DNA of 64,000 bases from Porphyra umbilicalis (Eukaryota > Rhodophyta > Bangiophyceae > Bangiales > Bangiaceae), in contig KV919091.1 in NCBI GenBank assembly GCA_002049455.2, forward strand, positions 20,061 through 84,060, written 5' to 3'. A model generated the notes under the pieces. It was not told the origin of the DNA and ran no database searches. It was given only the letters and a program-made list of their open reading frames with translations. The stretch's first letter is position 1. Each line of letters begins with the position of its first letter. The position numbers and the translations under genes are program-made. Positions 1 through 44,755 of this stretch are shown here, in pieces.

Positions 1-1296
1 GGCTGCTGCTGGGGCCCCCGCCGGGAATGGCGACTCGTCTGTCGACGGCAACGGCGGCAGCGGTGGCGGCGGCGGCGGCCGGGGCAATGCCGGCGGCGGC
101 TACGCTAGCAGCAACTGCAGCGACCGTGTGAGTCCACCCCCCCCCCCCCCCCCCACCCCCGCCACTGACCCCGCCGCCGTCGCCACGGCGTGGTCGGCCG
201 ACGGGTCCACCGACGCGCCCGCGCCCCGCCGGTGGAACGGGGGCGGCCAGCGGGGCGGTGGCTTTGGGCGCCCCCCCGCTGGCGGCGGCGGCGGCGGCGG
301 CGGCTTGCCCGACGACCCCATGTTTTCCCACGTTGCCACCGCGGGCATCCCCGACGCCAAAGTGCGCCGCATGGCCACCATTTACCGGCTGGTGCGGGAG
401 CACGCGGACGCGGCCGCCGGCGCGGGGCCGCCCGTCGACGCAGAGGCAAACGTGCTCCTCGGCCCGCGGCTGTCGCCCATCCGGTCGCTCCCGCGTGTCG
501 CGCCGGCGGTGCTTGCTGAGCTGCGCCACCAGCTGCCGGCCGCCGACGCGGCCGACGTGCTCGTCTCGTCGGGGTCGGCGGCGGCGCCAACGGCGGCGGC
601 GGCGGCCGCCGCCGCCGCTGGCGGAGACGGCCGCGCGGCGGCAGAGGCGGCGCTGTGGCGCCGCGTCGACGCGGCAACGATGGACCCCCACTCGTTTGCG
701 CGCCTCGTGCGCGCGTCGGCGCTCGGGGCGGACGGCGCGGCGGGTGCGGCCGGGGCGGCGGCGGGGGCGGCGGCGGCGCCCGGCGGCGCCCCGGCGCCCC
801 GGCGGCGGCGGCGAGCTTTGGCGGCGCTCCCGGGGCGGCCGCTGCCGGCGGGTCCGGCCGCCGCCTCGGCGCCGGCGGCCGCACCGGCCGCACCCGCACC
901 GCCGCGCGCGCGGCGTGCCCCCTCTCTGACGCCCGCGGGCGGGTGGAGGTGGATTACCGGCAGGTCGAGCTGCTCCGCACCTTTGTCAACCCGAGCGGCC
1001 GCCTGCTCGGGCGGCGGGCCAACGGGACGACGGCCAAGGCGCAGCGGCGGGTGTCGCGGGCGGTCAAGACGGCGCGGCAGATGGCGCTCCTCAACCCGAC
1101 CGTGCAAACGCCGATTGCGTATGCAGAGGAGGGGATGGTGGGGGGAGGGGGGGGCGGGCGTCTACTAGGGCGGTCGGATTTGGGGCGAGCGTCGGTCTGG
1201 GGGGCCGCCGGCTTTGTCGGTGGCGGCGTCGCGCTGTGGGTTGCTATGAGAGGCGGGCGGCGGGTGCCGCCGCCAATGGCTGCACCGTCCACATGA
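1..1296 (+). CDS. Organellar-type ribosomal protein bS18, copy A (5' end outside window)
   Basis: The C-terminal part, about 945-1110, matches the bacterial/organellar S18 core. It reads VDYRQVELLRTFV, then a GRLLGRRANGTTAKAQRR segment and a basic helix ending ARQMALLNP, the usual S18 order. S18 binds 16S-type rRNA on the small-subunit platform. Upstream is a long low-complexity Gly/Ala/Pro-rich extension, open in the frame of 128-720, with a more normal stretch (DPMFSHVATAGIPDAKVRRM) near 320-375. The extension and the S18 core are in different frames, switching within the G/C-rich run around 730-840. I could not find a convincing intron, so the join is unresolved. A G-run difference near 1136-1155 makes copy A read to 1296, whereas copy B stops early. 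The S18 call is firm; the gene model is not. Confidence 0.75.
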
Positions 1297-1480
1297 AGAA
1301 TACCGCGATTGTTTGCTTGCTACAGAACAGCCCGACGCATGCGGACCACCCGAGTCATCTAAGCGTGTGCCCCGTGCTCTGGCCCTCGCCACGGCCCACC
1401 CCTCCCCCCCAAAAATTTCCTCTCGTTGAGGAAAGCACAGAGCTCGGCAACCTGCCGACCGCCGCTGGCGCGCATCCGCC

Positions 1481-3087
1481 TCAGACCGCCGTCACCACAA
1501 ACCTGGCGTCGACCGGCACGTCCGTCCACGTCGCGGTGCTCCCGTCACTCCACTCGACCGTCAACTCCTCAATCGCGTCGCGGTCGCCGAGCCCAAAATG
1601 CACGACGCGGAGGTCGTCGGTGATGCCGCTGCCGCCCGCCCCCCCACCCGCCGCACGATCGAGCGGGTGCTCCCCGTGCCGTCTGCGCTCGCTGCGGTGA
1701 CCGTCACGAGCGCGTTGGACGGTGCCGCCCGCCGGTTCGGACTCCGCCCAACGTCGACGAGCAGCCAGTGGCCACCCCCGTCGTCGGGCAGTGGGGAGGT
1801 GTTGGCAAACAGGGACCAGGAGCCGAGCGGGCCCCGCCCGGCCACCTCATCACCGGCGCCGATGAGCAAGTCGAGCCGCCCGTCGCGGTCATAGTCAAAC
1901 GCCTGCACCGAGTCGCCCGCGGCGGGGCTCACCTGGTTGGCACCGTGGTCGGTGGAGGCCGTAAACCCGCCGTCGCCGTCGCCGGTCAACAAGACGTCGG
2001 GCCGTGCCACGGCACCGCCGGCGGCAACCGGCTCAGCAGCGTAGGAGAGGAACACGTCCGTTGCGCCGTCATTGTTGAAATCCCCGACGGTCACATCGCA
2101 GTGGCCGCGGTGCTTGCCCGCTGGCGGCGGGGCGGCGACAAAGCGGGAGTTGCCATCGTTGACCAGCAGCACGTCGGGCTGCCACTGGCGCGCCAGGTAC
2201 AAGTCCCACCTCCCATCCCCGTTTACGTCGAGCTCCGCCGCCGCCCAGACACTCGAGCCGATGGACCTGCGGTTCGGGATGTCCCGCAGCCAATGGTAGG
2301 TGCGGTCGGCAAACGTAAACGGGCTTGTCGCAATGTAGATGCGGAGGAAGGGAAAGGCAACGACATCCATCCAGCCGTCGCCGTTGAGGTCGGTGAGGAT
2401 GGCGCGCTCGACATTGGCATCCTCCAACCCCGAGTCGTTGCGCCGCACGTACACCCCATTGACGTTCTCATACACACGCTGGCGAGGGCCGGACGCCTTA
2501 GGGCTGACAACGTAGTTGAGGAGGATGAGGTCGAGGTCGCCATCGCGGTCCATGTCGACAAGCAGCGGCGTGCGGCCGCGGCCGCCCGTGTCCGCTTCGA
2601 GCGTCGTGGCCCGCTGCGCCTGCTCCAACTTCCGCCTGCGGCCTGCCGAGCGGAGCAGCCGGGGCGTGGCGGGCGCGCCTCCGTTGGCCCCCCCCTGCAT
2701 GACGATGAAGTCAGACGAGCCGGTCAAGAAAATGTCCCCGGCCGCCATCCCGTGCGCGTCAATGAGAAAGGGGAGCGGGTCCTTCGCACGGGTGAACCGC
2801 CCGTTGCGGGTGTTCCAAAACAGCTGCAACGTGGTCTGGTCGTGGTTGTTGAGGACGAGGTCGTACCACCCGTCGCCGTCCAAGTCAGAAATAAGGGCGC
2901 CGCCCCACTTGGTCGAGGGGGACGTCTCTAAGCCGACAGCGTCGGTGACGCTCGTCCAAGTCGCGGTGCCGGTGCCATTGACGCCCTCGCCGGCGGCGGC
3001 GGTGAGGAGGGCGGCCGCGGCCACGGTCGCCAAAGCTGTCGCCGCAGCCGTAGCGTACACAGCCAGCGGGTGCTGAGGGATGCCCAT
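1481..3087 (-). CDS. Secreted FG-GAP/VCBS-repeat protein with ASPIC/UnbV C-terminus, copy A (C-terminal frameshift)
   Basis: I place the start at 3087, where ATG has a strong context (CACCATGG). A hydrophobic Ala/Val/Leu signal segment follows in about residues 10-33, so the product probably enters the secretory pathway. The body has repeated calcium-binding-type loops, including DLDGDGWYDL, DMDRDGDLDL, DLNGDGWMDV, DVNGDGRWDL, DFNNDGATDV and DYDRDGRLDL. This pattern marks FG-GAP/VCBS beta-propellers of the integrin-alpha/CRTAC1 type. Copy A has seven C at 1639-1645 where copy B has eight. The reading frame is therefore lost before the ASPIC-like end (VHFGLGD in copy B), and translation runs to a stop at 1561 instead of 1481. 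An adhesion or extracellular-matrix role would be inference from the fold only. Confidence 0.85.
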
Positions 3088-5049
3088 GGTGCAGAGCAAA
3101 GTGGCAGACAGCAAAGGATGAGACGCAGCAAGTCACCACGACGCCGCGCTCCGAGCCGTGTCGTCGACAGGTACAAAAGAGCGACCATATGAGTGTGTGT
3201 GTCACGCTCTGTCCCAACAATGAGCGCCACCTTGCCTTGAAGTTGCAGTCGGTGAACCAGCACAGAAGCAGGCCGGCCTTAAGACAAGAAAAGGGAGTCA
3301 AGCCAGAGCGCTGTCAAGCCGTACACCACCCTCCTCCAACACGCCTACGCCACCCCCACCCCCCCCTACCGCCGCACACCCCGGCACTTGACGGTCGCCG
3401 CCCCCCTGCCCCTTCACCACGCGCGGGTGGCAGACGAGGTCAACACACTGTCCCCGTGACACTCCCGTCGGCAGGCAACACTGCGCGGCTGTCACAGTCC
3501 ACCCCGCTCGTCGAGCTGTCACGCCCTCCGCGTCCTCTGACGCCGTCGCCCGCCGAGCGCTCCGGCACTTGGCGGCCAGAACCCGTTGATCACCCCACCA
3601 CGCTGCCGGTAGTGGCCGACACACTGTCCCTGTGACAGTCTCGCCGACAACGACGTGCGGCCGTAACCGTCCGCACCGCTCGTCCACTCCCGGCGGCGTC
3701 TTCGTGGCCTGCGCCTGCCACCACCTTCCACTGATGTCGACGCAGGCCCTTTCCGCCTCCACCCTGACGAGCCGCCGTCGCAGTCCCCCCGTCCCGTGGG
3801 TGGCCGTGACACATCGGTAACACCGAGGTCGCGTCGCGCGCCAAGGCAGCGCGCCGCGGTGGCTCAGTCTCGGGTGTCGGGGCGCACGCCACCGGTGCGT
3901 CCACCTCGCCTTGGCGCGCACTTTGCCATGCCGTCCACCGCCCACCTACTTGTACCCGAGCGGGCGCGGGCGACGCGCACACCGACCCCTCCGTTCACCG
4001 GGCGGACGGCACGCGGTCGCCCACCGTCACGCAAGAGGGTTCCCAGGGAGCACCAAGGGCCACCAGAGGGGCGGACGTCCCCTCTTCGCGGCGGCCTCCG
4101 CGCAGCCACCGCCACTATCCAGGAGGCGGCGGTGCCCCCACCGGGCACAGGTGTTGGTTGCTGGCTGCGCGGGCGCGCCCGGAGGGTCCCCCCCCGGGCT
4201 CGGGGCGTCCCTCCACGGGCTCGGCATCCACCCCGCGCCACCCCGACGGCCTCCCCGCCGAGTCCCTCCCCGCGCCCCTCCCCGTATCCCTCCCCCCTCG
4301 TCCCGACCTCCACCCGCTTCCCCCTACTCTGCGCTGATGCGCGCAACTCTCCCCCCGGCGATGGGTCGACCGCGGCGCGGCGGCCGGCCGCGCGCCTCCG
4401 CGTCGGGAGTCTCGGGTGCCCACGTTGCGCCGCGCCGCGCGCGGTGCGTGGCGGATGCCGGGGGAACCGGGATCGGCGTGACGTGGCTTGGGTGGCTTGC
4501 GGCCAACATGGCGGCTTGCCAGTCAGGCACCTGGGGGGAAGGGCCCTCCAAGGGGCCGATGCGCCGCTGTAACGAAGGAGAGAGAAGCGGCAGGGAGGGG
4601 CGTGGAGGAACGGAGGTGCTCTCCCCCGCATCGTTGTGGAGCAAGTGCTCCCCCACCGGCAGAGTGGGAGAGCCCCACCTGCTGCGCGGCAGGGAAGCAC
4701 TGACAGCACTGCCGGCGGCCGGTGTCATTGCGGACGGGGCGGGCGTTCCACCCCCGGCCGCACCCCTGCACCAACCATCCCACCGTGCCAGCCGATGCAC
4801 GGGCGGCCGGCAGGCGCCCCCGCGCGCCCCTCTCACGTGGTCTTTGACCATCGTTTCACCCACCTAGCGTGCCCGTGGCGAGGCGGTGGCGGCCGCCACT
4901 GTCATGCCTTCCCGGTCGGCGGCGGCACAACACTCGACGCCGCGGACGGCGGTGCAGATGCGGAGGGGGGGTCGGCCGGAGCAGAGGTGGAGGGGGGTGC
5001 GGCCGGAGCAGAGACGAGCACACGCCGCGACGAGGAGGTAGGGGGGAGT

Positions 5050-5083
5050 GAGTGGTTGGCAGACGCGAGTGGTTGGCAGACGC
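5050..5083 (+). repeat. 17-bp tandem repeat, 2 units
   Basis: Two perfect units of GAGTGGTTGGCAGACGC. Copy B has three units at 37932-37982, so the array changed length after the duplication. Confidence 0.95.
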
Positions 5084-5589
5084 GCCGACAAGTATTGGCA
5101 GCAGCGGCGTTGGTAGGTGCCCGGGGAATGGGTGCTTGAGCGGGAGCAGGGGCGCCTGCGAGAGGTGCGGCCGACGAGCCCGCCGGCGGCGCCGCCCAAC
5201 CCACCGCCCCAGCCGTACGCATCGCGGGCGGCCACAGCCGTGCGGCGGGCGCGCGCGCCGGTGGCGGCTCGCCGAGCACTCGCTCGGCGGGCGCGCCGCC
5301 AGTGCCACACCCACCCCCACTGCCACTCCCACCGCCACTGCCACCGCCGTCACGGCACACGGGTGGGCGCAGCAGCGGCACCGCGACCGCCGCCGCTTCG
5401 CCGACTGTCGGGGTGGCAAAGCGCTTGCCCGCCCGACCCCCCCGCGGTGGGTGTCAGGTGGCCGCGCGACCGCCCCCAGCCGCCGCCGAGACCGCCCCGC
5501 CGCGTGCGCGCTGGTGGGGGTGTCAGCGCGCGGGGCGGGCGGCCAAGGGGGCAAGTGCGGGTTGCCGCTCTGCTGCGCATCCAGTCTCG

Positions 5590-5616
5590 CCCCCCCCCCC
5601 CCCCCCCCCCCCCCCC
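5590..5616 (+). repeat. Poly-C tract, 27 nt
   Basis: An uninterrupted run of 27 C, followed by C-runs broken by single G (CCCCG-type) to about 5690. The corresponding run in copy B is 77 nt. The complementary strand is poly-G and could form quadruplexes. Confidence 0.9.
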
Positions 5617-5853
5617 GCCCCGCCCCCCCCCCCCGCCCCCCCCGCCCCGCCCCGCCCCGCCCCGCACCGCCCCGCACCGCCCCGCTCCCAAAAAGTCCCC
5701 ACCGCCGACGCGCCACGGCACCACCGCCGACGGGCGGGCGCCCGTCGATTGCGTCGCGGCACGCCCCACGCCTCGTGCCGCGCCCGTCGCAGTCGCACGG
5801 CGGCGGGGCCAACGTCCGCGCGCCGCGTGACACTCGCGCCAGCGCCGAACTAA

Positions 5854-5930
5854 GCGCGTGTGTGTGCGGCCGCGCGGGGGACGAAACGGGGCGCGCGTGT
5901 GTGTGCGGCCGCGCGGGGGACGAAACGGGG
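5854..5930 (+). repeat. 38-bp direct repeat, 2 units (period 39)
   Basis: The unit starts GCGCGTGTGTGTGCGG and ends GACGAAACGGGG. It occurs at 5854-5891 and 5893-5930 and runs into a short GC dinucleotide tract. Copy B has the same pair, with a 2-bp deletion in the second unit. Confidence 0.9.
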
Positions 5931-6054
5931 CGCGCGCGCGCGCGCGCGGCGCTCGCCGCGGGTGCCGCCGCGGCTCGCGCGCGGGCAGACGGGTGCGGGC
6001 GGCAACCAATCGCCGCGGGCGCCCCAAACGCGCCGGCCAATGCCGAGCCGCCGG

Positions 6055-8635
6055 CTAGACGATGCCGGTGGCGAGCGCGGCGGCGGCCGCCGCGTTGCGC
6101 TTCTTTCCACCCCCACCGCCGCCGGGCCCCCCGCCATCCCTGTCGTCGTCCGCGTCAGGCGGCGGCGGCCGGCGCTTCCAGTTTGGAGGGCCACCGCCCC
6201 CCCCCCCCCCCCCTTGCGGCCGCCGCCCCCGCCCCCATCACCGCCGTCGTCCTCGTCGCGCACGGGCGCCCACAGGTACACGCTGTAGCTCGAGCCGGTC
6301 GCGAGCACCGCCGCCGTCGGGTGCAACTCGTTGAGCGTGCAAACGGTGTTTAGGCGGGCGTCGGCAAGCGCCGTTGCGTGGCGCCACGCCCGCCCGTCGG
6401 GGGCGTCAAACAGGTCGACGGGGTGCACGGTGACGGGGCGGACGCGTCGGCGGCCCGTCGGCGTCACGCCGGCCACCTCCTCCCCGAGGAAGCGGCCGCA
6501 CACAAAGCCCGTCTCCCGCCAATTGTCCGCGTGCGGGTCCCAGGACGCGACAAAGGAGGCCGGGTAGCCCGCCCAATCGTGCGAGTGGATGAGCGTCGAC
6601 GACGGCGTCGCCGCCGCAGCCGCCGCATGCGCGCGGCCGGCGGGCGCCCCGGCAGGCGCGGGCACCGCCGCCATGGCCTTAAAGTCAAAGCGGTCGAGGC
6701 GGGGGAGGGCGGCCATCCCCACCACCGCGTGCACGTCCCCCCACACCCACACCCGGTTTTCCTGCCCCGTCACGAGCAGCCGCGTGCCCGTGTGGGGGGA
6801 GAAGGCCGCCCCATAGATGGACCGGTTGGCCGTGGCGCCGCCTACGGCGCCGGCGGTGCGGCGGCCGACGCTGCCGCCGCCGCCGCCGCCGGCACCGCCG
6901 CCCGCCGGCAGGCGGCGCACGTCCCACAACCGCACCGCCCGGTCGCTGCCGGCGGTGGCCAACAGCCGCCCGTCGCCGGCATTGACGGCGACCGAGTTGA
7001 CCCGCCGCTGCGCATGCGCGCGCCAGGTGCCCCCGGCCGCCGCCCGGGGCGCCCGCGGGTCCACCCGGTGCACCCGCCCCCGCGAGTCGCCGACGTAGAC
7101 GAGGCCGCTGCCCGCGTCGACAGTCACAGACGCAAAGCCGGTGGCGTCTGCGCACCCCACATCCGCCGCGGCCAAGAGCGTCGTCATGTGGGGGCGGCCG
7201 CCCCCCCCGCCCCCGCCCCCGGCTCAAACGCGGCCAGGCACAGCCGCCGTAGGGACCCATCGACGCCCGTCGTGTAGACACCGTCCGCGTCCCGGGCGGC
7301 GTCGGACGCCACCCCAGTCACCGCCGTGCCGCCGACGTGGACCGGCGCGGTTGTGATGCAGTCAGAGATGGCGCCGTCCCCCCCCCGTCCACGCCGAGCA
7401 AGTCGTGGCGCCACACCCCCACCGCCCCCGCCGCGTCGGCGGCAACGACCAGCCGCGGGTGGGCGGCCGGCAGGCCGAGGGCGGTCACCCGCGTCGGCAA
7501 CATCCGCACCGCCGCGGCGGCAACGGCGACGGCGCCGCCGAGGCGGTGCCGCCGGCGCAGGCGATTGCGGAGGGCGGGGGGGGAGGGGGTGCTCGCCCGC
7601 GCCGCCAAGTAGCGGGGTGTCGTCAGGGCGCCGCGGGGGGGGGCCTCGGCGCGGCGCGAGGCGCGTCGGCCGTGGCGGCGGCACTCCCAGGGAGCGCCAC
7701 ACCAGCCACCCGGTGGGGGCAGTCGGTAAAAATGTGGCCGGCGCGGCGGCAGAGGTAACACTCGCGCACCGGGCAGTAGCGGCGGGCGTGCCACGGGTCC
7801 GCGTCGCAGTAGAGGCAGCGGCCGTCATTGTAGTTAAAGTGGCCAGAACCGACGGGCCGGGGGCCCCGTGGCGTCGCCGCCGCACCAGCGTCGACGCTGG
7901 CGTCGGGGGGGGGGCGGCCGCCGCGGCGCCGCCCCCGACCGCACCGCCAATGCTGCCGCCCGCGGGGGGCGACGAGCGCAGTGCAGACGCGGTGGTGGCC
8001 GCCGCCGCGACAGACAGCTCCCTTTGACCAGTGGCGAGTGAGGAGGTCTGCCGCAGAGGTGGGGCCGGCGTTTCCGCTGACAGACGGCGGTTGAGGCGCA
8101 GGCGCAACGCCGGCCGCGACGGCGTCGACGCGAGCTTGCCGGCATCAGCGCTAGCACCAATGGCGGCGGCGCCACGGGCAGGCGTTACCGGCGTGGTCAG
8201 AAACGTGTCGCCACGCACCGTCGGGCCACCATCTGCACTTGCATCGTCATCCTCCCAGGTGCGGTCGCTCCCACTGTCACCGTCGCTGTCGTCGTCGGCG
8301 CCGCTGTCCCCACGCGGCTCCTCATCGTCGTGGTCGGCGGCAGCGGCACGGACGCCTGCCGCTTCGACAATAGTACGCCTCCGACCGGAGCGGCGCAACA
8401 AGGGGAAAGCGGGAGAGTGGGCGGTGGAAGTCGCTGACGGCGGGCGGTTGATGGCTGTTGTCGACGAGGAGCCGCAACGGTCACGTCGTGAAGGCGGCTG
8501 AGTCGAACAGCAATCGCGACGCCCCCCCAGCGCGCGCTGCGTCGGCGCGCACCGACGCGATCGGGTCGACGGGATAGCCACAAGATCAACAAGTTCATGC
8601 GTTGGATGCACAACGATTCGTGATACTTGATTCAA
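6055..8635 (-). CDS. DDB2: DDB2-like damaged-DNA-binding WD40 protein, copy A (frame broken by homopolymers)
   Basis: From the N-terminus (8635 downward) there is a basic and acidic disordered region, then two zinc knuckles: CLYC..H..C, and CYLCRRAGHIFTDCPHRV, which resembles the plant DDB2 knuckle. WD40 repeats follow, with segments RLVVAADAAGAVGVWRHD, GLVYVGDSRGRVHRVD, LLATAGSDRAVRLWDVR, LLVTGQENRVWVWG and a last blade ending ATGSSYSVYLWAP. A Gly-rich tail and basic KKRNAAAAAALATGIV end at a TAG at 6057-6055. DDB2 binds UV-damaged DNA and, with DDB1-CUL4, starts global nucleotide-excision repair in the nucleus. The pieces lie in different frames, switching at G/C runs near 7911, 7625 and 7205 and in the poly-C near 6200. 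The first ATG at 8635 is tentative. Confidence 0.8.
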
Positions 8636-8814
8636 ATATATACTTGTGTCGCTTCAGCACCCCAATCATACCAGCACACCAATCGTGTACTTTATGAGAA
8701 CCATCCAATACATGCGGCTGTGCCTCGTGCGAGCACGCGCGGCGGAGCCGCACCAGCGCAGTGGGGCTTGGACCGTGTAAATACCTCACGGATCTGCTGA
8801 TTCTGTGTTGCAGG

Positions 8815-10453
8815 TAGGGTGGTGCAACCAGAGGTGTGATTAAATCAAAAGTGGGCCCGATTTTTTTGTGATTTAAATCACCCCTCGATTTTAAACCGTA
8901 TGGGGCGATTTTTATTGATTTAATCAACACCCACCGATTTTTATCAGGACCGATGATTTATACTCAAATCAAATACTTTAAGTAGCAGGTAAGTGGGATC
9001 AAGGTCTCCTCAGGGCCGATTTTTGGTACCTGTCGAAGCTGAAGACAACCGAGAGTGCAACGAGAAGACACAAGATCGGGTCTGATGGCCTCAATCGACA
9101 AACAAGCACGAGAGATATGGACAGCGCCAACAACACCCCAGCTGTACATGAGCAAACTGCAGAGCCGTATCTCAAACCGCACGTCTGGCAAGAATGAACT
9201 CTGGGCACCTGACTTCAAGCACGCCTGAAGGGGACGGACATGGAGAACAGGCCCGGAGTGGTACTGTATGCTTCGGGTGGCAAAATGGTGCCTTTCTCTG
9301 ACACCCGAGAAGTTCCCGGAGCTGTGAAGATGTTGCCGGATGGAAACGGAGAACAAGGCCATCACGACGCAGCGCACTTGATGTCGCCTAAACTAATGTA
9401 GCACCCGTTTGGCACCTCCAAATTCAATGTTTCAAGAAAAGAAGGGGGGCTATATGAAAGAGGTCAAGGGATTTAAATCATACAGGGCTCGATTTCTATT
9501 GATTTAATCATTAAAATCAGCTTGATTTAAATCACATTGAAATCACTTAACATCTCTGGGTGCAACACGCCATGGCGTGTTCACGGACTCACCCAGGGCG
9601 TGTTTCATCGCGTGTTTAGGGCGTGTCACGCCAGCACGCCTGCCCAAACATGGGGCGTGTTTTAGGCGTGCTTAATTACAGGTTCACGTGCACTTAATAG
9701 GCTGGTTGCAGTGAGGTGGTCGTGTAAGGATTGCAACCGACTCGACCCCCACCGATTGACCGACATGACCAAGGTGGTGCTGCAAATGCGAGCTGCGCTG
9801 GCCAAAGAGGCGGCGCCGCGCCAGACGGTGTCACCGGGGTCCCACATGGGCGATTTTGGTCAAGATGCCGGCGGAATGGTGGACCCCGATGATGACTGCG
9901 AGGACGAGTGGAGCCCCCCCCCCGGCTGCCGACAACGAGAACGACGCTGACGCGGGTGCGGTCGCAGGCCTGGCATCCGACGCCATAAGCATACAGCAGG
10001 AGTTGGACGAGGTGTCCCAGGCATGCCGCGAGCGGGGAGAGGCGACAGCGAACGACGAAGCGTCGGAAGTCAACGGCGCCAGCCAGCCGACTCGCCTCCC
10101 AGAGTCTGATCTTGTGAGCATTTGCGTGGCTTACGTGGCGCGGAGTGTTGGCACGGAGGGTGTCGCTGCTGCGGTGGGTGGGGCGTCGAGCGCGGCAGGC
10201 AGCGGCCGCGGTCCTCGTCAGACCAACGTGCTGCTCAAAGATGTGTTTGACACGACGTGGTATCTGGCCAGCGCTAAGATTGTGTATCGTATGGAGCGGT
10301 TTAAGCAGAGCATCAGTAGACGCTACTTGGAGTTTTTATGGGTGTTACTTTAGGGCGTGTTGGGCGTGTTTAGTGTTTAAGGGCGTGTTTAGGGCGTGTT
10401 TTAACGTGTCACGACCGCACGCCCTTCAAAAAGGGGCGTGTTGTACAACCCTA
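8815..10453. mobile_element. hAT-type non-autonomous transposon, copy A, carrying a nested insertion
   Basis: The element begins TAGGG and ends CCCTA, flanked by the 8-bp direct repeat GTTGCAGG at 8807-8814 and 10454-10461. In copy B the two ends form a perfect terminal inverted repeat (TAGGGTTGTGCAACACGCC). Here the left end carries T-to-G and is split by the MITE at 8829-9558. Both flanks inside the ends carry many GGGCGTGTTT-type motifs (9600-9680 and 10350-10440), as hAT elements often do. TIR plus 8-bp duplication points to the hAT superfamily. Internal ORFs at 9711-9950 and 9856-10353 overlap across a C-run and show no hAT transposase domain that I recognise. Confidence 0.85.
8829..9558. 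mobile_element. AT-rich hAT-like MITE (730 bp) nested in the element above
   Basis: It begins CAGAGGTGTGATTAAATC and ends AACATCTCTG, so the outer inverted repeat is CAGAGRTGT. It is flanked by the 8-bp duplication GGTGCAAC at 8821-8828 and 9559-9566. Copy B has the uninterrupted site. Subterminal TGATTTAAATCA-like motifs recur at both ends (8845-8960 and 9470-9545). The AT-rich ends contrast sharply with the GC-rich surroundings. No transposase was recognised inside, so it would need transposase from elsewhere. Confidence 0.9.
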
Positions 10454-10559
10454 GTTGCAGGCTGTTGCAGGATCTCCACAGTCTGCCAAATGGCTGCAGG
10501 TCGGGCCATTTTGTGCTGGCAGCCTGCTGGTTTAACAGATATCCGAGGTCGGACGGACT

Positions 10560-32138: not shown

Positions 32139-32170
32139 TTCGTTTATATAGTAGGTACTATATAAACGAA
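32139..32170. repeat. 32-bp AT-rich palindrome
   Basis: Arms TTCGTTTATATAGTA and TACTATATAAACGAA with GG between them. It lies upstream of the pogo-type transposase and may mark an element edge or a former excision site. No second copy was found nearby. Confidence 0.85.
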
Positions 32171-32310
32171 CAGCACATAATTGAATAGTTACTGTACTAT
32201 GACACGGTGCGAGTCTTGATGCATGTTTCAGCAGAAAGCGTCACTTGTGGTGTCACTGTTGCAAATTTTGGAGTGCTTGGTTTTTTGTGGAACGACTGCA
32301 TGTCTACTCT

Positions 32311-32669: not shown

Positions 32670-32777
32670 TGGGTATGCCTGGAAGTCGACTTGGGACCCG
32701 ACACGGTTGTCGGCGTGCCCGTCGCCGTCGCTCTGCCGGCCCGCGTCGCCCTCGAGGCGCCCCTTTGCCGCGACACC

Positions 32778-34051: not shown

Positions 34052-34363
34052 GGCGGTCGGATTCGGGGCGAGCGTCGGTCTGGGGGGCCGCCGGCTTTGT
34101 CGGTGGCGGCGTCGCGCTGTGGGTTGCTATGAGAGGCGGGCGGCGGGTGCCGCCGCCAATGGCTGCACCGTCCACGTGAAGAATACCGCGATTGTTTGCT
34201 TGCTACAGAACAGCCCGACGCATGCGGACCACCCGAGTCATCTAAGCGTGTGCCCCGTGCTCTGGCCCTCGCCACGGCCCACCCCTCCCCCCCAAAAATT
34301 TCCTCTCGTTGAGGAAAGCACAGAGCTCGGCAACCTGCCGACCGCCGCTGGCGCGCATCCGCC

Positions 34364-35970
34364 TCAGACCGCCGTCACCACAAACCTGGCGTCGACCGGC
34401 ACGTCCGTCCACGTCGCGGTGCTCCCGTCACTCCACTCGACCGTCAACTCCTCAATCGCGTCGCGGTCGCCGAGCCCAAAATGCACGACGCGGAGGTCGT
34501 CGGTGATGCCGCTGCCGCCCGCCCCCCCCACCCGCCGCACGATCGAGCGGGTGCTCCCCGTGCCGTCTGCGCTCGCTGCGGTGACCGTCACGAGCGCGTT
34601 GGACGGTGCCGCCCGCCGGTTCGGACTCCGCCCAACGTCGACGAGCAGCCAGTGGCCACCCCCGTCGTCGGGCAGTGGGGAGGTGTTGGCAAACAGGGAC
34701 CAGGAGCCGAGCGGGCCCCGCCCGGCCACCTCATCACCGGCGCCGATGAGCAAGTCGAGCCGCCCGTCGCGGTCATAGTCAAACGCCTGCACCGAGTCGC
34801 CCGCGGCGGGGCTCACCTGGTTGGCACCGTGGTCGGTGGAGGCCGTAAACCCGCCGTCGCCGTCGCCGGTCAACAAGACGTCGGGCCGTGCCACGGCACC
34901 GCCGGCGGCAACCGGCTCAGCAGCGTAGGAGAGGAACACGTCCGTTGCGCCGTCATTGTTGAAATCCCCGACGGTCACATCGCTGTGGCCGCGGTGCTTG
35001 CCCGCTGGCGGCGGGGCGGCGACAAAGCGGGAGTTGCCATGGTTGACCAGCAGCACGTCGGGCTGCCACTGGCGCGCCAGGTACAAGTCCCACCTCCCAT
35101 CCCCGTTTACGTCGAGCTCCGCCGCCGCCCAGACACTCGAGCCGATGGACCTGCGGTTCGGGATGTCCCGCAGCCAATGGTAGGTGCGGTCGGCAAACGT
35201 AAACGGGCTTGTCGCAATGTAGATGCGGAGGAAGGGAAAGGCAACGACATCCATCCAGCCGTCGCCGTTGAGGTCGGTGAGGATGGCGCGCTCGACATTG
35301 GCATCCTCCAACCCCGAGTCGTTGCGCCGCACGTACACCCCATTGACGTTCTCATACACCCGCTGGCGAGGGCCGGACGCCTTAGGGCTGACAACGTAGT
35401 TGAGGAGGATGAGGTCGAGGTCGCCATCGCGGTCCATGTCGACAAGCAGCGGCGTGCGGCCGCGGCCGCCCGTGTCCGCTTCGAGCGTCGTGGCCCGCTG
35501 CGCCTGCTCCAACTTCCGCCTGCGGCCTGCCGAGCGGAGCAGCCGGGGCGTGGCGGGCGCGCCTCCGTTGGCCCCCCCTGCATGACGATGAAGTCAGACG
35601 AGCCGGTCAAGAAAATGTCCCCGGCCGCCATCCCGTGCGCGTCAATGAGAAAGGGGAGCGGGTCCTTCGCACGGGTGAACCGCCCGTTGCGGGTGTTCCA
35701 AAACAGCTGCAACGTGGTCTGGTCGTGGTTGTTGAGGACGAGGTCGTACCACCCGTCGCCGTCCAAGTCAGAAATAAGGGCGCCGCCCCACTTGGTCGAG
35801 GGGGACGTCTCTAAGCCGACAGCGTCGGTGACGCTCGTCCAAGTCGCGGTGCCGGTGCCATTGACGCCCTCGCCGGCGGCGGCGGTGAGGAGGGCGGCCG
35901 CGGCCACGGTCGCCAAAGCTGTCGCCGCAGCCGTAGCGTACACAGCCAGCGGGTGCTGAGGGATGCCCAT
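34364..35970 (-). CDS. Secreted FG-GAP/ASPIC protein, copy B (mid-gene frameshift)
   Basis: Same gene as 1481-3087, with ATG at 35970 and the same signal segment. Here the C-run at 35572-35578 has seven C where copy A has eight. Translation from the start therefore leaves frame after the MQGG segment, and the rest is open only as a separate frame (35512-34364). The C-terminal end is intact in this copy: GITDDLRVVHFGLGDRDAIEELTVEW, an ASPIC/UnbV-like domain, ending at TGA. Each copy thus has a different break, and neither reads through as given. Confidence 0.85.
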
Positions 35971-37931
35971 GGTGCAGAGCAAAGTGGCAGACAGCAAAGG
36001 ATGAGACGCAGCAAGTCACCACGACGCCGCGCTCCGAGCCGTGTCGTCGACAGGTACAAAAGAGCGACCAGATGAGTGTGTGTGTCACGCTCTGTCCCAA
36101 CAATGAGCGCCACCTTGCCTTGAAGTTGCAGTCGGTGAACCAGCACAGAAGCAGGCCGGCCTTAAGACAAGAAAAGGGAGTCAAGCCAGAGCGCTGTCAA
36201 GCCGTACACCACCCTCCTCCAACACGCCTACGCCACCCCCACCCCCCCCTACCGCCGCACACCCCGGCACTTGACGGTCGCCGCCCCCCTGCCCCTTCAC
36301 CACGCGCGGGTGGCAGACGAGGTCAACACACTGTCCCCGTGACACTCCCGTCGGCAGGCAACACTGCGCGGCTGTCACAGTTCACCCCGCTCGTCGAGCT
36401 GTCACGCCCTCCGCGTCCTCTGACGCCGTCGCCCGCCGAGCGCTCCGGCACTTGGCGGCCAGAACCCGTTGATCACCCCACCACGCTGCCGGTAGTGGCC
36501 GACACACTGTCCCTGTGACAGTCTCGCCGACAACGACGTGCGGCCGTAACCGTCCGCACCGCTCGTCCACTCCCGGCGGCGTCTTCGTGGCCTGCGCCTG
36601 CCACCACCTTCCACTGATGTCGACGCAGGCCCTTTCCGCCTCCACCCTGACGAGCCGCCGTCGCAGTCCCCCCGTCCCGTGGGTGGCCGTGACACATCGG
36701 TAACACCGAGGTCGCGTCGCGCGCCAAGGCAGCGCGCCGCGGTGGCTCAGTCTCGGGTGTCGGGGCGCACGCCACCGGTGCGTCCACCTCGCCTTGGCGC
36801 GCACTTTGCCATGCCGTCCACCGCCCACCTACTTGTACCCGAGCGGGCGCGGGCGACGCGCACACCGACCCCTCCGTTCACCGGGCGGACGGCACGCGGT
36901 CGCCCACCGTCACGCAAGAGGGTTCCCAGGGAGCACCAAGGGCCACCAGAGGGGCGGACGTCCCCTCTTCGCGGCGGCCTCCGCGCAGCCACCGCCACTA
37001 TCCAGGAGGCGGCGGTGCCCCCACCGGGCACAGGTGTTGGTTGCTGGCTGCGCGGGCGCGCCCGGAGGGTCCCCCCCGGGCTCGGGGCGTCCCTCCACGG
37101 GCTCGGCATCCACCCCGCGCCACCCCGACGGCCTCCCCGCCGAGTCCCTCCCCGCGCCCCTCCCCGTATCCCTCCCCCCCTCGTCCCGACCTCCACCCGC
37201 TTCCCCCGACTCTGCGCTGATGCGCGCAACTCTCCCCCCGGCGATGGGTCGACCGCGGCGCGGCGGCCGGCCGCGCGCCTCCGCGTCGGGAGTCTCGGGT
37301 GCCCACGTTGCGCCGCGCCGCGCGCGGTGCGTGGCGGATGCCGGGGGAACCGGGATCGGCGTGACGTGGCTTGGGTGGCTTGCGGCCAACATGGCGGCTT
37401 GCCAGTCAGGCACCTGGGGGGAAGGGCCCTCCAAGGGGCCGATGCGCCGCTGTAACGAAGGAGAGAGAAGCGGCAGGGAGGGGCGTGGAGGAACGGAGGT
37501 GCTCTCCCCCGCATCGTTGTGGAGCAAGTGCTCCCCCACCGGCAGAGTGGGAGAGCCCCACCTGCTGCGCGGCAGGGAAGCACTGACAGCACTGCCGGCG
37601 GCCGGTGTCATTGCGGACGGGGCGGGCGTTCCACCCCCGGCCGCACCCCTGCACCAACCATCCCACCGTGCCAGCCGATGCACGGGCGGCCGGCAGGCGC
37701 CCCCGCGCGCCCCTCTCACGTGGTCTTTGACCATCGTTTCACCCACCTAGCGTGCCCGTGGCGAGGCGGTGGCGGCCGCCACTGTCATGCCTTCCCGGTC
37801 GGCGGCGGCACAACACTCGACGCCGCGGACGGCGGTGCAGATGCGGAGGGGGGGTCGGCCGGAGCAGAGGTGGAGGGGGGTGCGGCCGGAGCAGAGACGA
37901 GCACACGCCGCGACGAGGAGGTAGGGGGAGT

Positions 37932-37982
37932 GAGTGGTTGGCAGACGCGAGTGGTTGGCAGACGCGAGTGGTTGGCAGACGC
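37932..37982 (+). repeat. 17-bp tandem repeat, 3 units
   Basis: Three perfect units of GAGTGGTTGGCAGACGC; copy A has two. Confidence 0.95.
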
Positions 37983-38489
37983 GCCGACAAGTATTGGCAG
38001 CAGCGGCGTTGGTAGGTGCCCGGGGAATGGGTGCTTGAAGCGGGAGCAGGGGCGCCTGCGAGAGGTGCGGCCGACGAGCCCGCCGGCGGCGCCGCCCAAC
38101 CCACCGCCCCAGCCGTACGCATCGCGGGCGGCCACAGCCGTGCGGCGGGCGCGCGCGCCGGTGGCGGCTCGCCGAGCACTCGCTCGGCGGGCGCGCCGCC
38201 AGTGCCACACCCACCCCCACTGCCACTCCCACCGCCACTGCCACCGCCGTCACGGCACACGGGTGGGCGCAGCAGCGGCACCGCGACCGCCGCCGCTTCG
38301 CCGACTGTCGGGGTGCCAAAGCGCTTGCCCGCCCGACCCCCCCGCGGTGGGTGTCAGGTGGCCGCGCGACCGCCCCCAGCCGCCGCCGAGACCGCCCCGC
38401 CGCGTGCGCGCTGGTGGGGGTGTCAGCGCGCGGGGCGGGCGGCCAAGGGGGCAAGTGCGGGTTGCCGCTCTCCTGCGCATCCAGTCTCG

Positions 38490-38567
<78 letters not shown>

Positions 38568-38596
38568 CCCCCCCCCCCCCCCCCCCCCCCCCCCCC
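38490..38596 (+). repeat. Poly-C tract, 77 C then G then 29 C
   Basis: Expanded form of the 27-nt run in copy A, interrupted by a single G at 38567. Open frames of poly-Pro or poly-Gly across it are artefacts. Confidence 0.85.
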
Positions 38597-39011
38597 GCCC
38601 CGCCCCCCCCCGCACCGCCCCGCCCCGCACCGCACCGCCCCGCTCCCAAAAAGTCCCCACCGCCGACGCGCCACGGCACCACCGCCGACGGGCGGGCGCC
38701 CGTCGATTGCGTCGCGGCACGCCCCACGCCTCGTGCCGCGCCCGTCGCAGTCGCACGGCGGCGGGGCCAACGTCCGCGCGCCGCGTGACACTCGCGCCAG
38801 CGCCGAACTAAGCGCGTGTGTGTGCGGCCGCGCGGGGGACGAAACGGGGCGCGCGTGTGTGTGCGGCGCGCGGGGGACGAAACGGGGCGCGCACGCGCGC
38901 GCGCGGCGCTCGCCGCGGGTGCCGCCGCGGCTCGCGCGCGGGCAGACGGGTGCGGGCGGCAACCAATCGCCGCGGGCGCCCCAAACGCGCCGGCCAATGC
39001 CGAGCCGCCGG

Positions 39012-41595
39012 CTAGACGATGCCGGTGGCGAGCGCGGCGGCGGCCGCCGCGTTGCGCTTCTTTCCACCCCGACCGCCGCCGGGCCCCCCGCCATCCCTGT
39101 CGTCGTCCGCGTCAGGCGGCGGCGGCCGGCGCTTCCAGTTTGGGGGGCCACCGCCCCCCCCCCCCCCCCCCTTGCGGCCGCCGCCCCCGCCCCCATCACC
39201 GCCGTCGTCCTCGTCGCGCACGGGCGCCCACAGGTACACGCTGTAGCTCGAGCCGGTCGCGAGCACCGCCGCCGTCGGGTGCAACTCGTTGAGCGTGCAA
39301 ACGGTGTTTAGGCGGGCGTCGGCAAGCGCCGTTGCGTGGCGCCACGCCCGCCCGTCGGGGGCGTCAAACAGGTCGACGGGGTGCACGGTGACGGGGCGGA
39401 CGCGTCGGCGGCCCGTCGGCGTCACGCCGGCCACCTCCTCCCCGAGGAAGCGGCCGCACACAAAGCCCGTCTCCCGCCAATTGTCCGCGTGCGGGTCCCA
39501 GGACGCGACAAAGGAGGCCGGGTAGCCCGCCCAATCGTGCGAGTGGATGAGCGTCGACGACGGCGTCGCCGCCGCCGCCGCCGCATGCGCGCGGCCGGCG
39601 GGCGCCCCGGCAGGCGCGGGCACCGCCGCCATGGCCTTAAAGTCAAAGCGGTCGAGGCGGGGGAGGGCGGCCATCCCCACCACCGCGTGCACGTCCCCCC
39701 ACACCCACACCCGGTTTTCCTGCCCCGTCACGAGCAGCCGCGTGCCCGTGTGGGGGGAGAAGGCCGCCCCATAGATGGACCGGTTGGCCGTGGCGCCGCC
39801 TACGGCGCCGGCGGTGCGGCGGCCGACGCTGCCGCCGCCGCCGCCGCCGGCACCGCCGCCCGCCGGCAGGCGGCGCACGTCCCACAACCGCACCGCCCGG
39901 TCGCTGCCGGCGGTGGCCAACAGCCGCCCGTCGCCGGCATTGACGGCGACCGAGTTGACCCACCGCTGCGCATGCGCGCGCCAGGTGCCCCCGGCCGCCG
40001 CCCGGGGCGCCCGCGGGTCCACCCGGTGCACCCGCCCCCGCGAGTCGCCGACGTAGACGAGGCCGCTGCCCGCGTCGACAGTCACAGACGCAAAGCCGGT
40101 GGCGTCTGCGCACCCCACATCCGCCGCGGCCAAGAGCGTCGTCGTGTGGGGGGCGGCCGCCCCCCCGCCCCCGCCCCCGGCTCAAACGCGGCCAGGCACA
40201 GCCGCCGTAGGGACCCATCGACGCCCGTCGTGTAGACACCGTCCGCGTCCCGGGCGGCGTCGGACGCCACCCCAGTCACCGCCGTGCCGCCGACGTGGAC
40301 CGGCGCGGTTGTGATGCAGTCAGAGACGGCGCCGTCCCCCCCCCCGTCCACGCCGAGCAAGTCGTGGCGCCACACCCCCACCGCCCCCGCCGCGTCGGCG
40401 GCAACGACCAGCCGCGGGTGGGCGGCCGGCAGGCCGAGGGCGGTCACCCGCGTCGGCAACATCCGCACCGCCGCGGCGGCAACGGCGACGGCGCCGCCGA
40501 GGCGGTGCCGCCGGCGCAGGCGATTGCGGAGGGCGGGGGGGGAGGGGGTGCTCGCCCGCGCCGCCAAGTAGCGGGGTGTCGTCAGGGCGCCGCGGGGGGG
40601 GGGCTCGGCGCGGCGCGAGGCGCGTCGGCCGTGGCGGCGGCACTCCCAGGGAGCGCCACACCAGCCACCCGGTGGGGGCAGTCGGTAAAAATGTGGCCGG
40701 CGCGGCGGCAGAGGTAACACTCGCGCACCGGGCAGTAGCGGCGGGCGTGCCACGGGTCCGCGTCGCAGTAGAGGCAGCGGCCGTCATTGTAGTTAAAGTG
40801 GCCAGAACCGACGGGCCGGGGGCCCCGTGGCGTCGCCGCCGCACCAGCGTCGACGCTGGCGTCGGGGGGGGGGGCGGCCGCCGCGGCGCCGCCCCCGACC
40901 GCACCGCCAATACTGCCGCCCGCGGGGGGCGACGAGCGCAGTGCAGACGCGGTGGTGGCCGCCGCCGCGACAGACAGCTCCCTTTGACCAGTGGCGAGTG
41001 AGGAGGTCTGCCGCAGAGATGGGGCCGGCGTTCCCGCTGAAAGACGGCGGTTGAGGCGCAGGCGCAACGCCGGCCGCGACGGCGTCGACGCGAGGTTGCC
41101 GGCATCAGCGCTAGCACCAATGGCGGCGGCGCCACGGGCAGGCGTTACCGGCGTGGTCAGAAACGTGTCGCCACGCACCGTCGGGCCACCATCTGCACTT
41201 GCATCGTCATCCTCCCAGGTGCGGTCGCTCCCACTGTCACCGTCGCTGTCGTCGTCGGCGCCGCTGTCCCCACGCGGCTCCTCATCGTCGTGGTCGGCGG
41301 CAGCGGAACGGACGCCTGCCGCTTCGACAATAGTACGCCTCCGACCGGAGCGGCGCAACAAGGGGAAAGCGGGCGAGTGGGCGGTGGAAGTCGCTGACGG
41401 CGGGCGGTTGATGGCTGTTGTCGACGAGGAGCCGCAACGGTCACGTCGTGGAGGCGGCTGAGTCGAACAGCAATCGCGACGCCCCCCCAGCGCGCGCAGC
41501 GTCGGCGCGCACCGACGCGATCGGGTCGACGGGACAGCCACAAGATCAACAAATTCATGCGTCGGATGCACAACGATTCGTGATACTTGATTCAA
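39012..41595 (-). CDS. DDB2: DDB2-like damaged-DNA-binding WD40 protein, copy B (frame broken by homopolymers)
   Basis: Same gene as 6055-8635. In this copy the first segment (41595-40582) reads in one frame through both zinc knuckles. The knuckles lie at about 40681-40790: CLYCDADPWHARRYC, then CYLCRRAGHIFTDCPHRV. The G-run at 40864-40874 has eleven G against ten in copy A. The first WD40 blades are in a second frame (to about 40170), and the rest is in a third frame from about 40133 to the stop TAG at 39014-39012, ending KKRNAAAAAALATGIV. The frame changes lie in G/C runs near 40605 and 40160. Family knowledge: DDB2 recognises UV photoproducts as part of the CUL4-DDB1 ligase. In plants the zinc knuckle is a distinctive N-terminal feature. 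Confidence 0.82.
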
Positions 41596-41774
41596 TTATA
41601 TACTTGTGTCGCTTCAGCACCCCAATCATACCAGCACACCAATCGTGTACTTTATGAGAACCATCCAATGCATGCGGCTGTGCCTCGTGCGAGCACGCGC
41701 GGCGGAGCCGCACCAGCGCAGTGGGGCTTGGACCGTGTAAATACCTCACGGATCTGCTGATTCTGTGTTGCAGG

Positions 41775-42675
41775 TAGGGTTGTGCAACACGCCATGGCGT
41801 GTTCACGGACACACCCAGGGCGTGTTTCATCGCGTGTTTAGGGCGTGTCACGCCAGCACGCCTGCCCAAACATGGGGCGTGTTTTAGGCGTGCTTAATTA
41901 CAGGTTCATGTGCACTTAATAGGCTGGTTGCAGTGAGGTGGTCGTGTAAGGATTGCAACCGACTCGACCCCCACCGATTGACCGACATGACCAAGGTGGT
42001 GCTGCAAATGCGAGCTGCGCTGGCCAAAGAGGCGGCGCCGCGCCAGACGGTGTCACCGGGGTCCCGCATGGGCGATTTTGGTCAAGATGCCGGCGGAATG
42101 GTGGACCCCGATGATGACTACGAGGACGAGTGGAGCCCCCCCCCCGGCTGCCGACAACGAGAACGACGCTGACGCGGGTGCGGTCGCAGGCCTGGCATCC
42201 GACGCCAGAAGCATACAGCAGGAGTTGGACGAGGTGTCCCAGGCATGCCGCGAGCGGGGAGAGGCGACAGCGAACGACGAAGCGTCGGAAATCAACGGCG
42301 CCAGCCAGCCGCCTCGCCTCCCAGAGTCTGATCTTGTGAGCATTTGCGAGGCTTACGTGGCGCGGAGTGTTGGCACGGAGGGTGTCGCTGCTGCGTTGGG
42401 TGGGGCGTCGAGCGCGGCAGGCAGCGGCCGCGGTCCTCGTCAGACCAACGTGCTGCTCAAAGATGTGTTTGACACGATGTGGTATCTGGCCAGCGCCAAG
42501 ATTGTGTATCGTATCGAGCGGTTTAAGCAGAGCATCGGTAGACGCTACTTGGAGATTTTATGGGTGTTACTTTAGGGCGTGTTGGGCGTGTTTAGTGTTT
42601 AAGGGCGTGTTTAGGGCGTGTTTTAGCGTGTCACGACCGCACGCCCTTCAAAAAGGGGCGTGTTGCACAACCCTA
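41775..42675. mobile_element. hAT-type non-autonomous transposon, copy B (901 bp, intact ends)
   Basis: Perfect inverted ends TAGGGTTGTGCAACACGCC, flanked by the 8-bp duplication GTTGCAGG at 41767-41774 and 42676-42683. GGGCGTGTTT-type motifs cluster in the first 110 bp and last 100 bp. Between them is an ORF (42078-42575, 165 codons) that is acidic in the middle and ends with VLLKDVFDTMWYLASAKIVYRIERFKQ. It overlaps a shorter upstream ORF (41933-42172, MRWSCKDCNR) across a C-run near 42137. It may be a shrunken remnant of a larger protein; I do not recognise it. Confidence 0.9.
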
Positions 42676-42781
42676 GTTGCAGGCTGTTGCAGGATCTCCA
42701 CAGTCTGCCCAATGGCTGCAGGACGGGCCATTTTGTGCTGGCAGCCTGCTGGTTTAACAGATATCCGAGGTCGGACGGACT

Positions 42782-43241
42782 GCGCAGCGGGCCCAAAACC
42801 GTCGTCAAAAGCACGTCTACTTTTGCGTGTTTTGAGGCGAACAGATAATCTGCGAACCGCCCTGCGGCTCTGTCAAAGCTGTTCTTTTCCAGAAAGGGCG
42901 CCAAAATCATCTGTTCGCCGGGATAGGTGCCTCTCCACCCGTAAAAAGAGAGACACAGCATAAGACGTGTACACTTCACCCTTCCAGAAAGAAAGAGAGA
43001 CGGGAAAGCATCTATGGCCCTGCTAGGAGGCGCTATGTGTGGAGTGAGGAACGATTCCTGTTCTCGCAAACATAAATATGCAAGGACCTCGCATGGGATG
43101 GCGTCTGAGAGCATGTCAAGGGGGGTCCATCTGTTTTTTGCGCAGGAATCCTGTTTCTTCAAACAGGAACACGGGCCTCCCACAGGCTCAAAACAGGTAA
43201 AAACAGACGTGCTTTTGACGACGGTTCTGGGCCTGCTGCGC
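42782..43241. mobile_element. MITE-like element, copy B
   Basis: Counterpart of 10560-11019, with the same inverted arms (GCGCAGCGGGCCCAAAACC). Only scattered substitutions separate the two. Confidence 0.7.
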
Positions 43242-44603
43242 TGGGCGGAGGCGGCGGACCGCCCGGCGGACGCATGTGATTGGCCGTCGGAGGATCGGGT
43301 CTGCTTGCAAAAGCCTCACGTCGGGCTCCTACGGCCGATACGTGGCACGCGCGTCTGCGAATATATGCCCATCACAGGCCCGTGGGCGACCCGAGGTAAG
43401 TCCATGGCGCGAAACGGTGGCGCCAAAGCCGGCGTCGATAATTGGCGGACGCGCCGGCGGACGCACACCGCGTGCGGCCGCCACTTTCGCTGGACCACCT
43501 TCGACCGCGCGGCCATGGTCGGAGCGACGCGCCGACGACCGTGACGGCCACCGGCCGGGTGTTCGCGGTGCTCTCCCTTCGTTCTGGCCCCAACTCCACA
43601 CCCGTGATGGAGCAGCAGCCTTCGCGGGCGCCACTCCTCTCCTCCCCCCCCCCTGCACCCCCGCCCCCACGCCCACCGCACCCGTTTCCTGCTTCTGGCG
43701 CCACTTACCACTCCAACCCTGGTCAGCCGTGCCCGACTCACCCTCCTCTCTACCGGCCCCACCGATTCCCAGTGTCGGTGGCGCTGACACTGGGGCGGCG
43801 TAGCGATCGTGCTCCTCGCTCTTGGAGAAAGTGGGCGGGGCTGCAGTGGGGCGGCTGTGACTGCTGTGTGGGTAGTGGGGCCGGCCGCGTTACCGCTCGC
43901 CACGCCCAACCCCACGCCCAGCCCCTGCCCGTAGCAACCCTCGCAAGGCCCAGGTCGTTTGTGAGCGTGTCGGGCGGTGGCGACTTACTGACCTGCCTCA
44001 CAGAGGGGCTGTCACCAACGCCGGGACAAGGGGGCGGGACGAGGACGTGTCGAGGAAAAGGGTTGCGGGCCGTGGGCGGGTCGTCGGGGCGGCCGCCGCG
44101 GACAGGCGTAGGTACGCGGGTGGCACGGCCGTCCGGCCTTAGTGGCAGGTCCTCCCGGTGACCTAGTAAGCCAGATGTCGCCGGCATTGACCCCGACGGG
44201 GCGGCCCCAATTTTCCGGGCGCTCTGTTTCGTCTCTTTTTCCGCGCCCCCCATCCACTGGCCGCCAATCGGGCGCCCCTCCTTCCTCTACGCACACTCAC
44301 CCCGTTGTCGCTCACGTCGGACAGACGCCACGCCCCTCCCTCCACCCTCCGACGGCTACCCGCGGCGCTGCTGGTGCTCCACCTGGTGGGGCGCACCCCG
44401 CCCCGACGCCACCCACTCCACCTGCATCCTAGGGGCGCGTGGAGGGCGCAGACCCCCCTGGCGTTCACCCATGCGGCCCCGCTGCGCGCGCCCTGGAGGT
44501 CCCCGCGGCCCCTCCCTCCCCACTTGTTCGTCCTGCGCGGCATCGCGCGGCGGGAGAAGGGCAGTTGGTGGTCCCGCCAGTGGCTCACCTGCATGGAGGC
44601 CAC
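43242..44603. other. Copy B tail without recognised gene
   Basis: Counterpart of 11020-12382, GC-rich, with no domain recognised. Confidence 0.5.
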
Positions 44604-44755
44604 ATGGGCGACGCCATGGCCGAGCTCACGCAGTTGGAAAGGACCCCGTGCTTCAAGACCTAACGGCCAAGTTCCCGGCGGAGGCCAGCCTCAAGGCTGT
44701 GCTCTCCAGAGCCAAGCGTGAATATCCCGTAGAGAAGAATGGGACGTGTGTATGA
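44604..44755 (+). other. ORF remnant at the duplication breakpoint
   Basis: ATG at 44604 (MGDAMAEL) is shared with copy A. The frame ends at 44663 after leaving the duplication. A one-base shift would continue as PVLQDLTAKFPAEASLKAVLSRAK to a stop at 44755. It is unidentified and could be the original 3' part of a gene that copy A lost, or chance. Confidence 0.3.

Follow-up and report, generated by a model that had tools for sequence, protein, structure and literature searches.

Two near-identical segments of Porphyra umbilicalis DNA as apparent members of a dispersed duplication family with a candidate hAT macrotransposition

In maize, two nearby Ac/Ds elements can act as one, with an 8-bp target duplication and at least 10 kb moved between them. 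One study (PMC9910405, which cites Huang and Dooner 2008) describes such macrotransposons of 10.3 kb and 28 kb, excision leaving a modified 8-bp duplication, and a gain in number; another (PMC3260210) describes a Ds-plus-Ac unit that mobilised up to 100 kb. The macrotransposons of these two sources are maize alleles. hAT macrotransposition is a known way for genes to multiply. Pack-TYPE transposons are another related system, described in PMC8903248 as non-autonomous DNA transposons carrying coding DNA. For macrotransposons in algae, our literature search, which left most subscription literature outside, found only work on Teratorn. Here we analyse a 64,000-nucleotide stretch of the red alga Porphyra umbilicalis (the window; C331:20061-84060 of contig C331, which ends at the window's right edge, 84060; window coordinates carry the prefix W). 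It holds two copies of a gene-bearing block, C331a (copy 1) and C331b (copy 2), and we compare them with relatives elsewhere in the genome, above all with one on contig C338 whose structure resembles a macrotransposon.

An initial annotation had described W1-12406 and W32882-44627 as near-identical direct copies, most simply a recent gene duplication amid transposons. The copies are present in the assembly: self-comparison of the window gives direct matches of W1-5683 to W32882-38581 (99.2% identical), W5590-8828 to W38546-41788 (98.8%) and W9560-12406 to W41782-44627 (97.6%), far above chance. The kind of event was also named correctly, but this is not a lone recent pair. The block queries W1-5000 and W5000-8828 were run against the whole genome (83.8 Mb, 665 contigs), and their match lists, in which the best candidates were scored, are lower bounds. 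Matches lie at nine places on eight contigs, C331 (two), C338, C24, C434, C446, C615, C114 and C353, mostly at 96-100% identity, so that the block occurs on seven contigs besides C331. Pairwise core identity over W5957-8660 is 96.7-99.4%.

We count at least six of these copies as independent (C331a, C331b, C338, C434, C114 and C446), because C24 probably represents the locus of C338, one insertion at TTCAGCAC is common to C446, C615 and C353, and C615 is a mosaic. Aligned pairwise over 3.7 kb, C24 and C338 show 6 substitutions and 38 gap runs, and the nine-way alignment has 16 substitutions between them in its core; C24 has no match to W1-5000 among the matches listed. C615 and C446 are identical over 500 bases at their right. 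The left part of C615 is C331a-like and its right part C446-like, and it looks chimeric. Both C114 and C615 begin at block position W4526, a sign of a repeat that the assembler failed to resolve. In the core tree, C338 with C24 and C446 with C353 each have 100% support, and C331b groups with C338/C24 at 56%. Judged from these alignments, W1-12406 and W32882-44627 appear to belong to a dispersed family of segmental duplications, with at least six copies around a block of ~9 kb.

The C338 copy is bounded by two direct ~540-bp hAT-type miniature inverted-repeat transposable elements (MITEs); it starts at C338:57061 and ends at 72566, a unit of 15.5 kb. The outer flanks of the two MITEs are the identical 8 bp, ATCAGTAT. 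The inner flanks are unlike, GTGTAGCC at the left MITE and TTCAGCAC at the right one, and in C331a the same left MITE has GTGTAGCC on both sides. The terminal inverted repeats of this MITE are CAGGCCYCACCAAG at one end and the complement, CTTGGTGRGGCCTG, at the other; these ends and the 8-bp duplications ruled out a reading of the 540-bp repeat as a long terminal repeat. All ten single copies examined, nine chosen from 42 match rows and C331a as the tenth, have an 8-bp duplication (nine exact; one mismatch on C32). As a control, the two direct MITEs that lie close together on C385 show a separate duplication each, and their outer flanks are unlike, the pattern expected of independent insertions. 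The same direct MITE pair, ~2.3 kb apart, stands near the first base of two contigs (C385:546-3369 and C649:539-3345), perhaps another redundancy at contig ends.

When the outer flanks of the C338 unit are joined, they align through the junction with three of the four relatives found, all three lacking the unit: C234 and C87 (72% identity; apparently copies of one another) and C88 (70.5%). The fourth, on C1, ends short of the junction. The 15.5-kb unit thus appears to be bounded as one piece, because its outer flanks are alike, its inner flanks are unlike and related sites without the unit exist. About 5.4 kb of it consists of two insertions in the block (C338:63753-64768 and 64938-69319), which may be younger than the unit.

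This structure is probably the one left by hAT macrotransposition, and we attach the same confidence to the whole explanation, a segmental-duplication family plus macrotransposition at C338. The right MITE would be related to the left one and perhaps descend from it by a local hop. A hAT transposase provided in trans would have joined the left MITE's left end to the right MITE's right end, and all DNA between those two outer ends would then have moved as one. The MITEs of C331a, C338 left and C338 right have states in common at positions 215 and 262 (none of the seven other copies) and at 119, 267 and 522 (one or two of the seven), and C338 left keeps further C331a-like states at 133 and 382 (none of the seven) and at 393 and 408 (one of the seven). 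This suggests that the three form one lineage, as from a local hop. The likeness to maize does not extend to the ends, which on C338 are short MITEs of another family, nor to the material, here the sequence of one genome, and the C338 cargo includes a gene under purifying selection. The unit would resemble Pack-TYPE elements as a non-autonomous DNA transposon with coding cargo; unlike them, its cargo is bounded by two whole MITEs and carries a whole gene frame.

Homologous recombination could yield the same outline (8 bp, MITE, block, MITE, 8 bp), if a circle or repair template with the block entered a single MITE resident at ATCAGTAT. At 216 and 260 the C338 MITEs agree with each other and not with C331a, which also suggests an exchange between the two or a donor slightly unlike C331a. 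The states at 119 and 522 each occur in one of the seven other copies, so an ordinary family member can match them, and positions 1 to about 132 of the left MITE and those from about 263 in the right one could have come from a resident. However, a resident MITE would be expected to contribute ordinary states to the outer parts, yet in C338 left position 119 is G and position 133 has the state of C331a (none of seven), and in C338 right position 522 is G. Recombination would call for either two crossovers within short intervals or a resident from the same lineage. The states close to the outer ends thus tend to speak against a MITE already present at the target, and we consider this route rather unlikely.

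Several further observations weigh against parts of the explanation as a whole. The kinship of the MITEs is modest, with 10 sites separating C338 right from C338 left, 13 separating it from C331a and 14 from C116, and the shared states at 216 and 260 count here as well. The genome is rich in hAT dimerisation domains (125 matches), which favours the explanation, but none was tied to the 540-bp MITE family and no transposase of that family was identified. The composite structure occurs in one independent copy, C24 repeating the right end of C338; it was not seen in C114, C615 and C353, which are cut by contig ends, or in the parts of C446 and C434 examined. No copy was found with both MITEs in donor positions, C331a having the left one only. 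Part of the copy structure may be assembly, given the common start of C114 and C615 and the mosaic C615, and both C331 copies of the gene discussed below carry a 1-base deletion. The left border of C434 abuts a similar MITE end; no matching other end was found in the stretch examined, and this border was not counted as a composite case.

The window's copies are laid out as follows (W coordinates; strand where a frame is given):
1..8660, gene block of copy 1, in-window part; continues leftward to the MITE at C331:19185-19723
1564..3132, reverse strand, FG-GAP/ASPIC-UnbV frame of copy 1 (Pfam FG-GAP_3, E 9.5e-31)
5853..7223, reverse strand, open frame with one WD40 repeat, copy 1 (Pfam WD40, E 2e-9)
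8653..8660, TTCAGCAC site, insertion-free in copy 1 and a target in C338/C24 and C446/C615/C353
8829..9558, 730-bp hAT-type non-autonomous element of copy 1, absent from copy 2; GGTGCAAC duplicated
9567..12406, right arm of copy 1, multi-copy DNA: an ~850-bp repeat, then part of a larger repeated element
12407..14357, right-arm continuation common to copy 1 and C114, missing from copy 2
14358..25696, the spacer itself, including a KDZ-associated (CxC4) frame at 22305-24056
25697..28496, left arm of copy 2; its homologues are pieces of C331:12889-19027, left of the window
28497..32195, 3.7-kb stretch of copy 2, replacing C331:19028-19734 of copy 1
30281..31906, reverse strand, Tc5/pogo-type transposase frame (DDE_1/HTH_Tnp_Tc5) inside that stretch
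32196..41620, gene block of copy 2, from C331:52256 to its TTCAGCAC
34367..35593, reverse strand, FG-GAP/ASPIC-UnbV frame of copy 2, ASPIC end whole
39015..40181, reverse strand, open frame with one WD40 repeat, copy 2 (Pfam WD40, E 1.4e-9)
41782..44627, right arm of copy 2, from the self-comparison
44628..48298, right-arm continuation of copy 2, following a 3.57-kb absence relative to C114, C195 and C369

The C331 pair does not itself have the composite structure of C338: the site of the right MITE is insertion-free in both copies. The pair appears to be a separate segmental duplication of the same block and not a product of C338-type macrotransposition, because its homology passes the MITE limits on both sides. 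The 12-kb unit of the initial annotation had its left limit at nothing but the window's edge; the homology continues ~7.2 kb further left, to C331:12889 and C331:45757 (W25697), broken by transposon insertions. At this limit of the duplication, next to a repeat with a presumed tRNA-like motif, lies a 31-base match between C331:12385-12415 and C331:19810-19840, which may be a transposon end. The 20 kb described as a transposon-filled spacer does hold a Tc5/pogo-type insertion, but ~7 kb of it (W25697-32881) belongs to copy 2, being its left arm plus the 3.7-kb insertion. The spacer lacking a counterpart in the other copy is W14358-25696, ~11.3 kb, and the CxC4 match of its frame (E 6.3e-5) is under the curated cut-off.

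The right edge at W12406/W44627, described as sharp in both copies, is not a border of the duplication. On C114 the continuation of copy 1 (to W14357) comes first and that of copy 2 (from W44628) second, the shared part and the latter being separated by 3.57 kb, and C195 and C369, related repeats of 87-94% identity, have about the same spacing. Since all three contigs have this spacing there, the edge is most simply read as the loss of 3.57 kb from copy 2. No more than one or two bases are shared at the junction. Copy 1 parts from C114 at W14357, entering unrelated DNA. The ~850-bp repeat of the right arm occurs at about 35 places in the genome at least. Inside the right-arm element on C114, a 1.6-kb inverted repeat (C114:12796-14414 and 17148-18766, 99.3% identical) surrounds ~2.7 kb. 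On C195, a 703-amino-acid frame (C195:41889-43997) has an NDC10_II match under the cut-off (E 3.7e-5). Going by this one sub-threshold match, the right-arm element may be Crypton-related.

Insertions also tell the copies apart. In copy 1, the 730-bp hAT-type element lies between two 8-bp copies of GGTGCAAC (W8821-8828 and W9559-9566), and the left arm holds a TA-flanked MITE (about C331:14902-15031), an ATC-flanked element (about C331:15596-18293), a TAA-flanked insertion (about C331:18413-18902) and the 540-bp MITE at C331:19185-19723. The 2.37-kb main part of the ATC-flanked element has at least 14 other full-length places at 92-97% identity among the matches listed. For the 3.7-kb stretch of copy 2, two of the four end patterns tried matched, both at the right end, and no left counterpart was found. 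Elsewhere in the family, TTCAGCAC has received the right MITE in C338/C24 and a 5.8-kb hAT-type element in C446/C615/C353. The latter insertion, 5.8 kb by position, has TTCAGCAC on both sides and is 98-99.8% alike over the first 0.8-0.96 kb compared. The same 8-bp target has thus been hit by two different hAT-type insertions, the 540-bp MITE and the 5.8-kb TAGGGTTGTTA element. C114 has its own 4.8-kb insertion (C114:4206-8969) at W8689-8696 and C434 departs from the block at W8763 (C434:32163), breaks that cluster just right of the WD40 frame. To the right of copy 2, a Copia-type reverse transcriptase frame lies at W57032-57670 (RVT_2, E 2.8e-48).

Alignment of the two C331 segments, which had been proposed as a check, shows 217 differences at 14,806 aligned sites, unevenly spread. 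The outer arms are 2.2-3.6% diverged (left, 92 of 2563 sites; right, 64 of 2845) and part of the centre 0.2% (8 of 3499 sites in seven windows of W0-4999 that exclude most of the FG-GAP frame), a further departure from a lone recent pair; the right half of the block, W5000-8828, is intermediate (40 of 3828). Selection is hardly the cause of 0.2% in DNA without a known gene. The low central divergence could reflect gene conversion, a more recent re-supply or assembly collapse of copies.

The pair itself may have arisen by unequal exchange, another transposition or break repair. Its two members lie in direct orientation on one contig with a 32.9-kb period, as expected if an ordinary tandem duplication by unequal exchange had later been split by transposon insertions. 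That origin would require the entire W14358-25696 to be a later insertion, and nothing right of copy 2 on C331 repeats this spacer at length. We regard it as possible, with less than even confidence.

The pair might instead be an assembly artefact, two haplotypes or repeat copies misjoined in one contig. The assembly does contain some redundancy (C24 against C338, which look like a single locus held twice, and C615, which switches from one copy type to another), three contigs have an end within the block (at W4526 for C114 and C615, at its last base for C353), and part of the pair's centre is nearly identical. An unresolved haplotype had been the main alternative of the initial annotation. However, W20001-25000 in the spacer has no second near-identical copy, its next long match being 72% over 3.1 kb, and the right flank W44628-49000 has none above 94%. 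The arms differ by the 2.2-3.6% given above, several clean transposon insertions separate the two copies, and two haplotypes are insufficient because more than two copies are distinguishable. A haplotype origin of the pair is unlikely judging from these comparisons, and an artefact of any of these kinds seems decidedly improbable.

Three recognisable genes had been reported in each copy; we recognise two, FG-GAP and WD40. Pfam matches, reported for E up to 0.1, were found for two of the five block frames first scanned in copy 1 (1564-3132, 3821-4864, 5853-7223, 7187-8653 and 10969-11790); the last, the one scanned within the right arm, matched nothing, and neither did ten further block frames at that limit. 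Rfam at gathering scores and a tRNA scan gave no match in the window.

The FG-GAP frame, of 550 amino acids, is open in C338, C434 and C446, and the whole C446 frame has FG-GAP repeats followed by ASPIC-UnbV. In this order it resembles CRTAC1-like proteins, and the C446 frame weakly matches cartilage acidic protein 1 (PDB 9etn, E 9.7e-5). The protein is perhaps secreted, to judge from its hydrophobic N-terminus. Block copies account for five of the 17 ASPIC matches genome-wide; the C331a match is partial. Copy 1 carries a 1-base deletion at about W1638 that the four other aligned copies lack and that splits off the ASPIC end; copy 2 has its own 1-base deletion, at the place of about W2688 in copy 1, which shortens the N-terminal side. 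Either these deletions are genuine or they are consensus errors. Across five copies and 550 codons, 20 variable codons are synonymous, 15 non-synonymous and 1 complex, and the ratio of non-synonymous to synonymous polymorphism (pN/pS) is 0.27 (p = 1e-4 against neutrality), which indicates a gene under purifying selection. The long WD40 frame (730 amino acids) has a pN/pS of 0.78 across nine copies, little constraint, which makes it probable that the larger part of the frame, as read, does not code. An assignment of this frame to CDC20/Fizzy was rejected (WD40_CDC20-Fz, 26-29 bits against a curated cut-off of 200); the sole above-cut-off match of the CDC20 family among the matches listed is on C161. 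The WD40 value and the deletions in both C331 FG-GAP frames would suit a block of inert DNA carried by repeats without a functional gene. This is unlikely, given the open 550-amino-acid frame in three copies and its low pN/pS.

The family is ordinary in kind, a transposon-rich segmental duplication, and more extensive than the initial annotation saw, with the C338 copy as one well-marked candidate macrotransposition attached to it. A bolder reading is a natural multi-gene macrotransposon lineage, in which MITE ends created by a local hop would have made a constrained gene and its surroundings movable by hAT transposase, and several dispersed copies beyond C338 would stem from such moves, their ends hidden by later insertions; we consider this doubtful. 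The family also serves as a warning that multi-copy DNA can pass for a simple two-copy duplication when a single window is read. Macrotransposons would be searchable by their signature, neighbouring direct MITEs whose inner flanks are unlike and whose outer flanks are alike. If the reading of C338 is true, a macrotransposition route would be at work in a GC-rich eukaryote outside maize (G+C across the window is 57-82% in 2-kb steps), with a constrained gene inside the unit.

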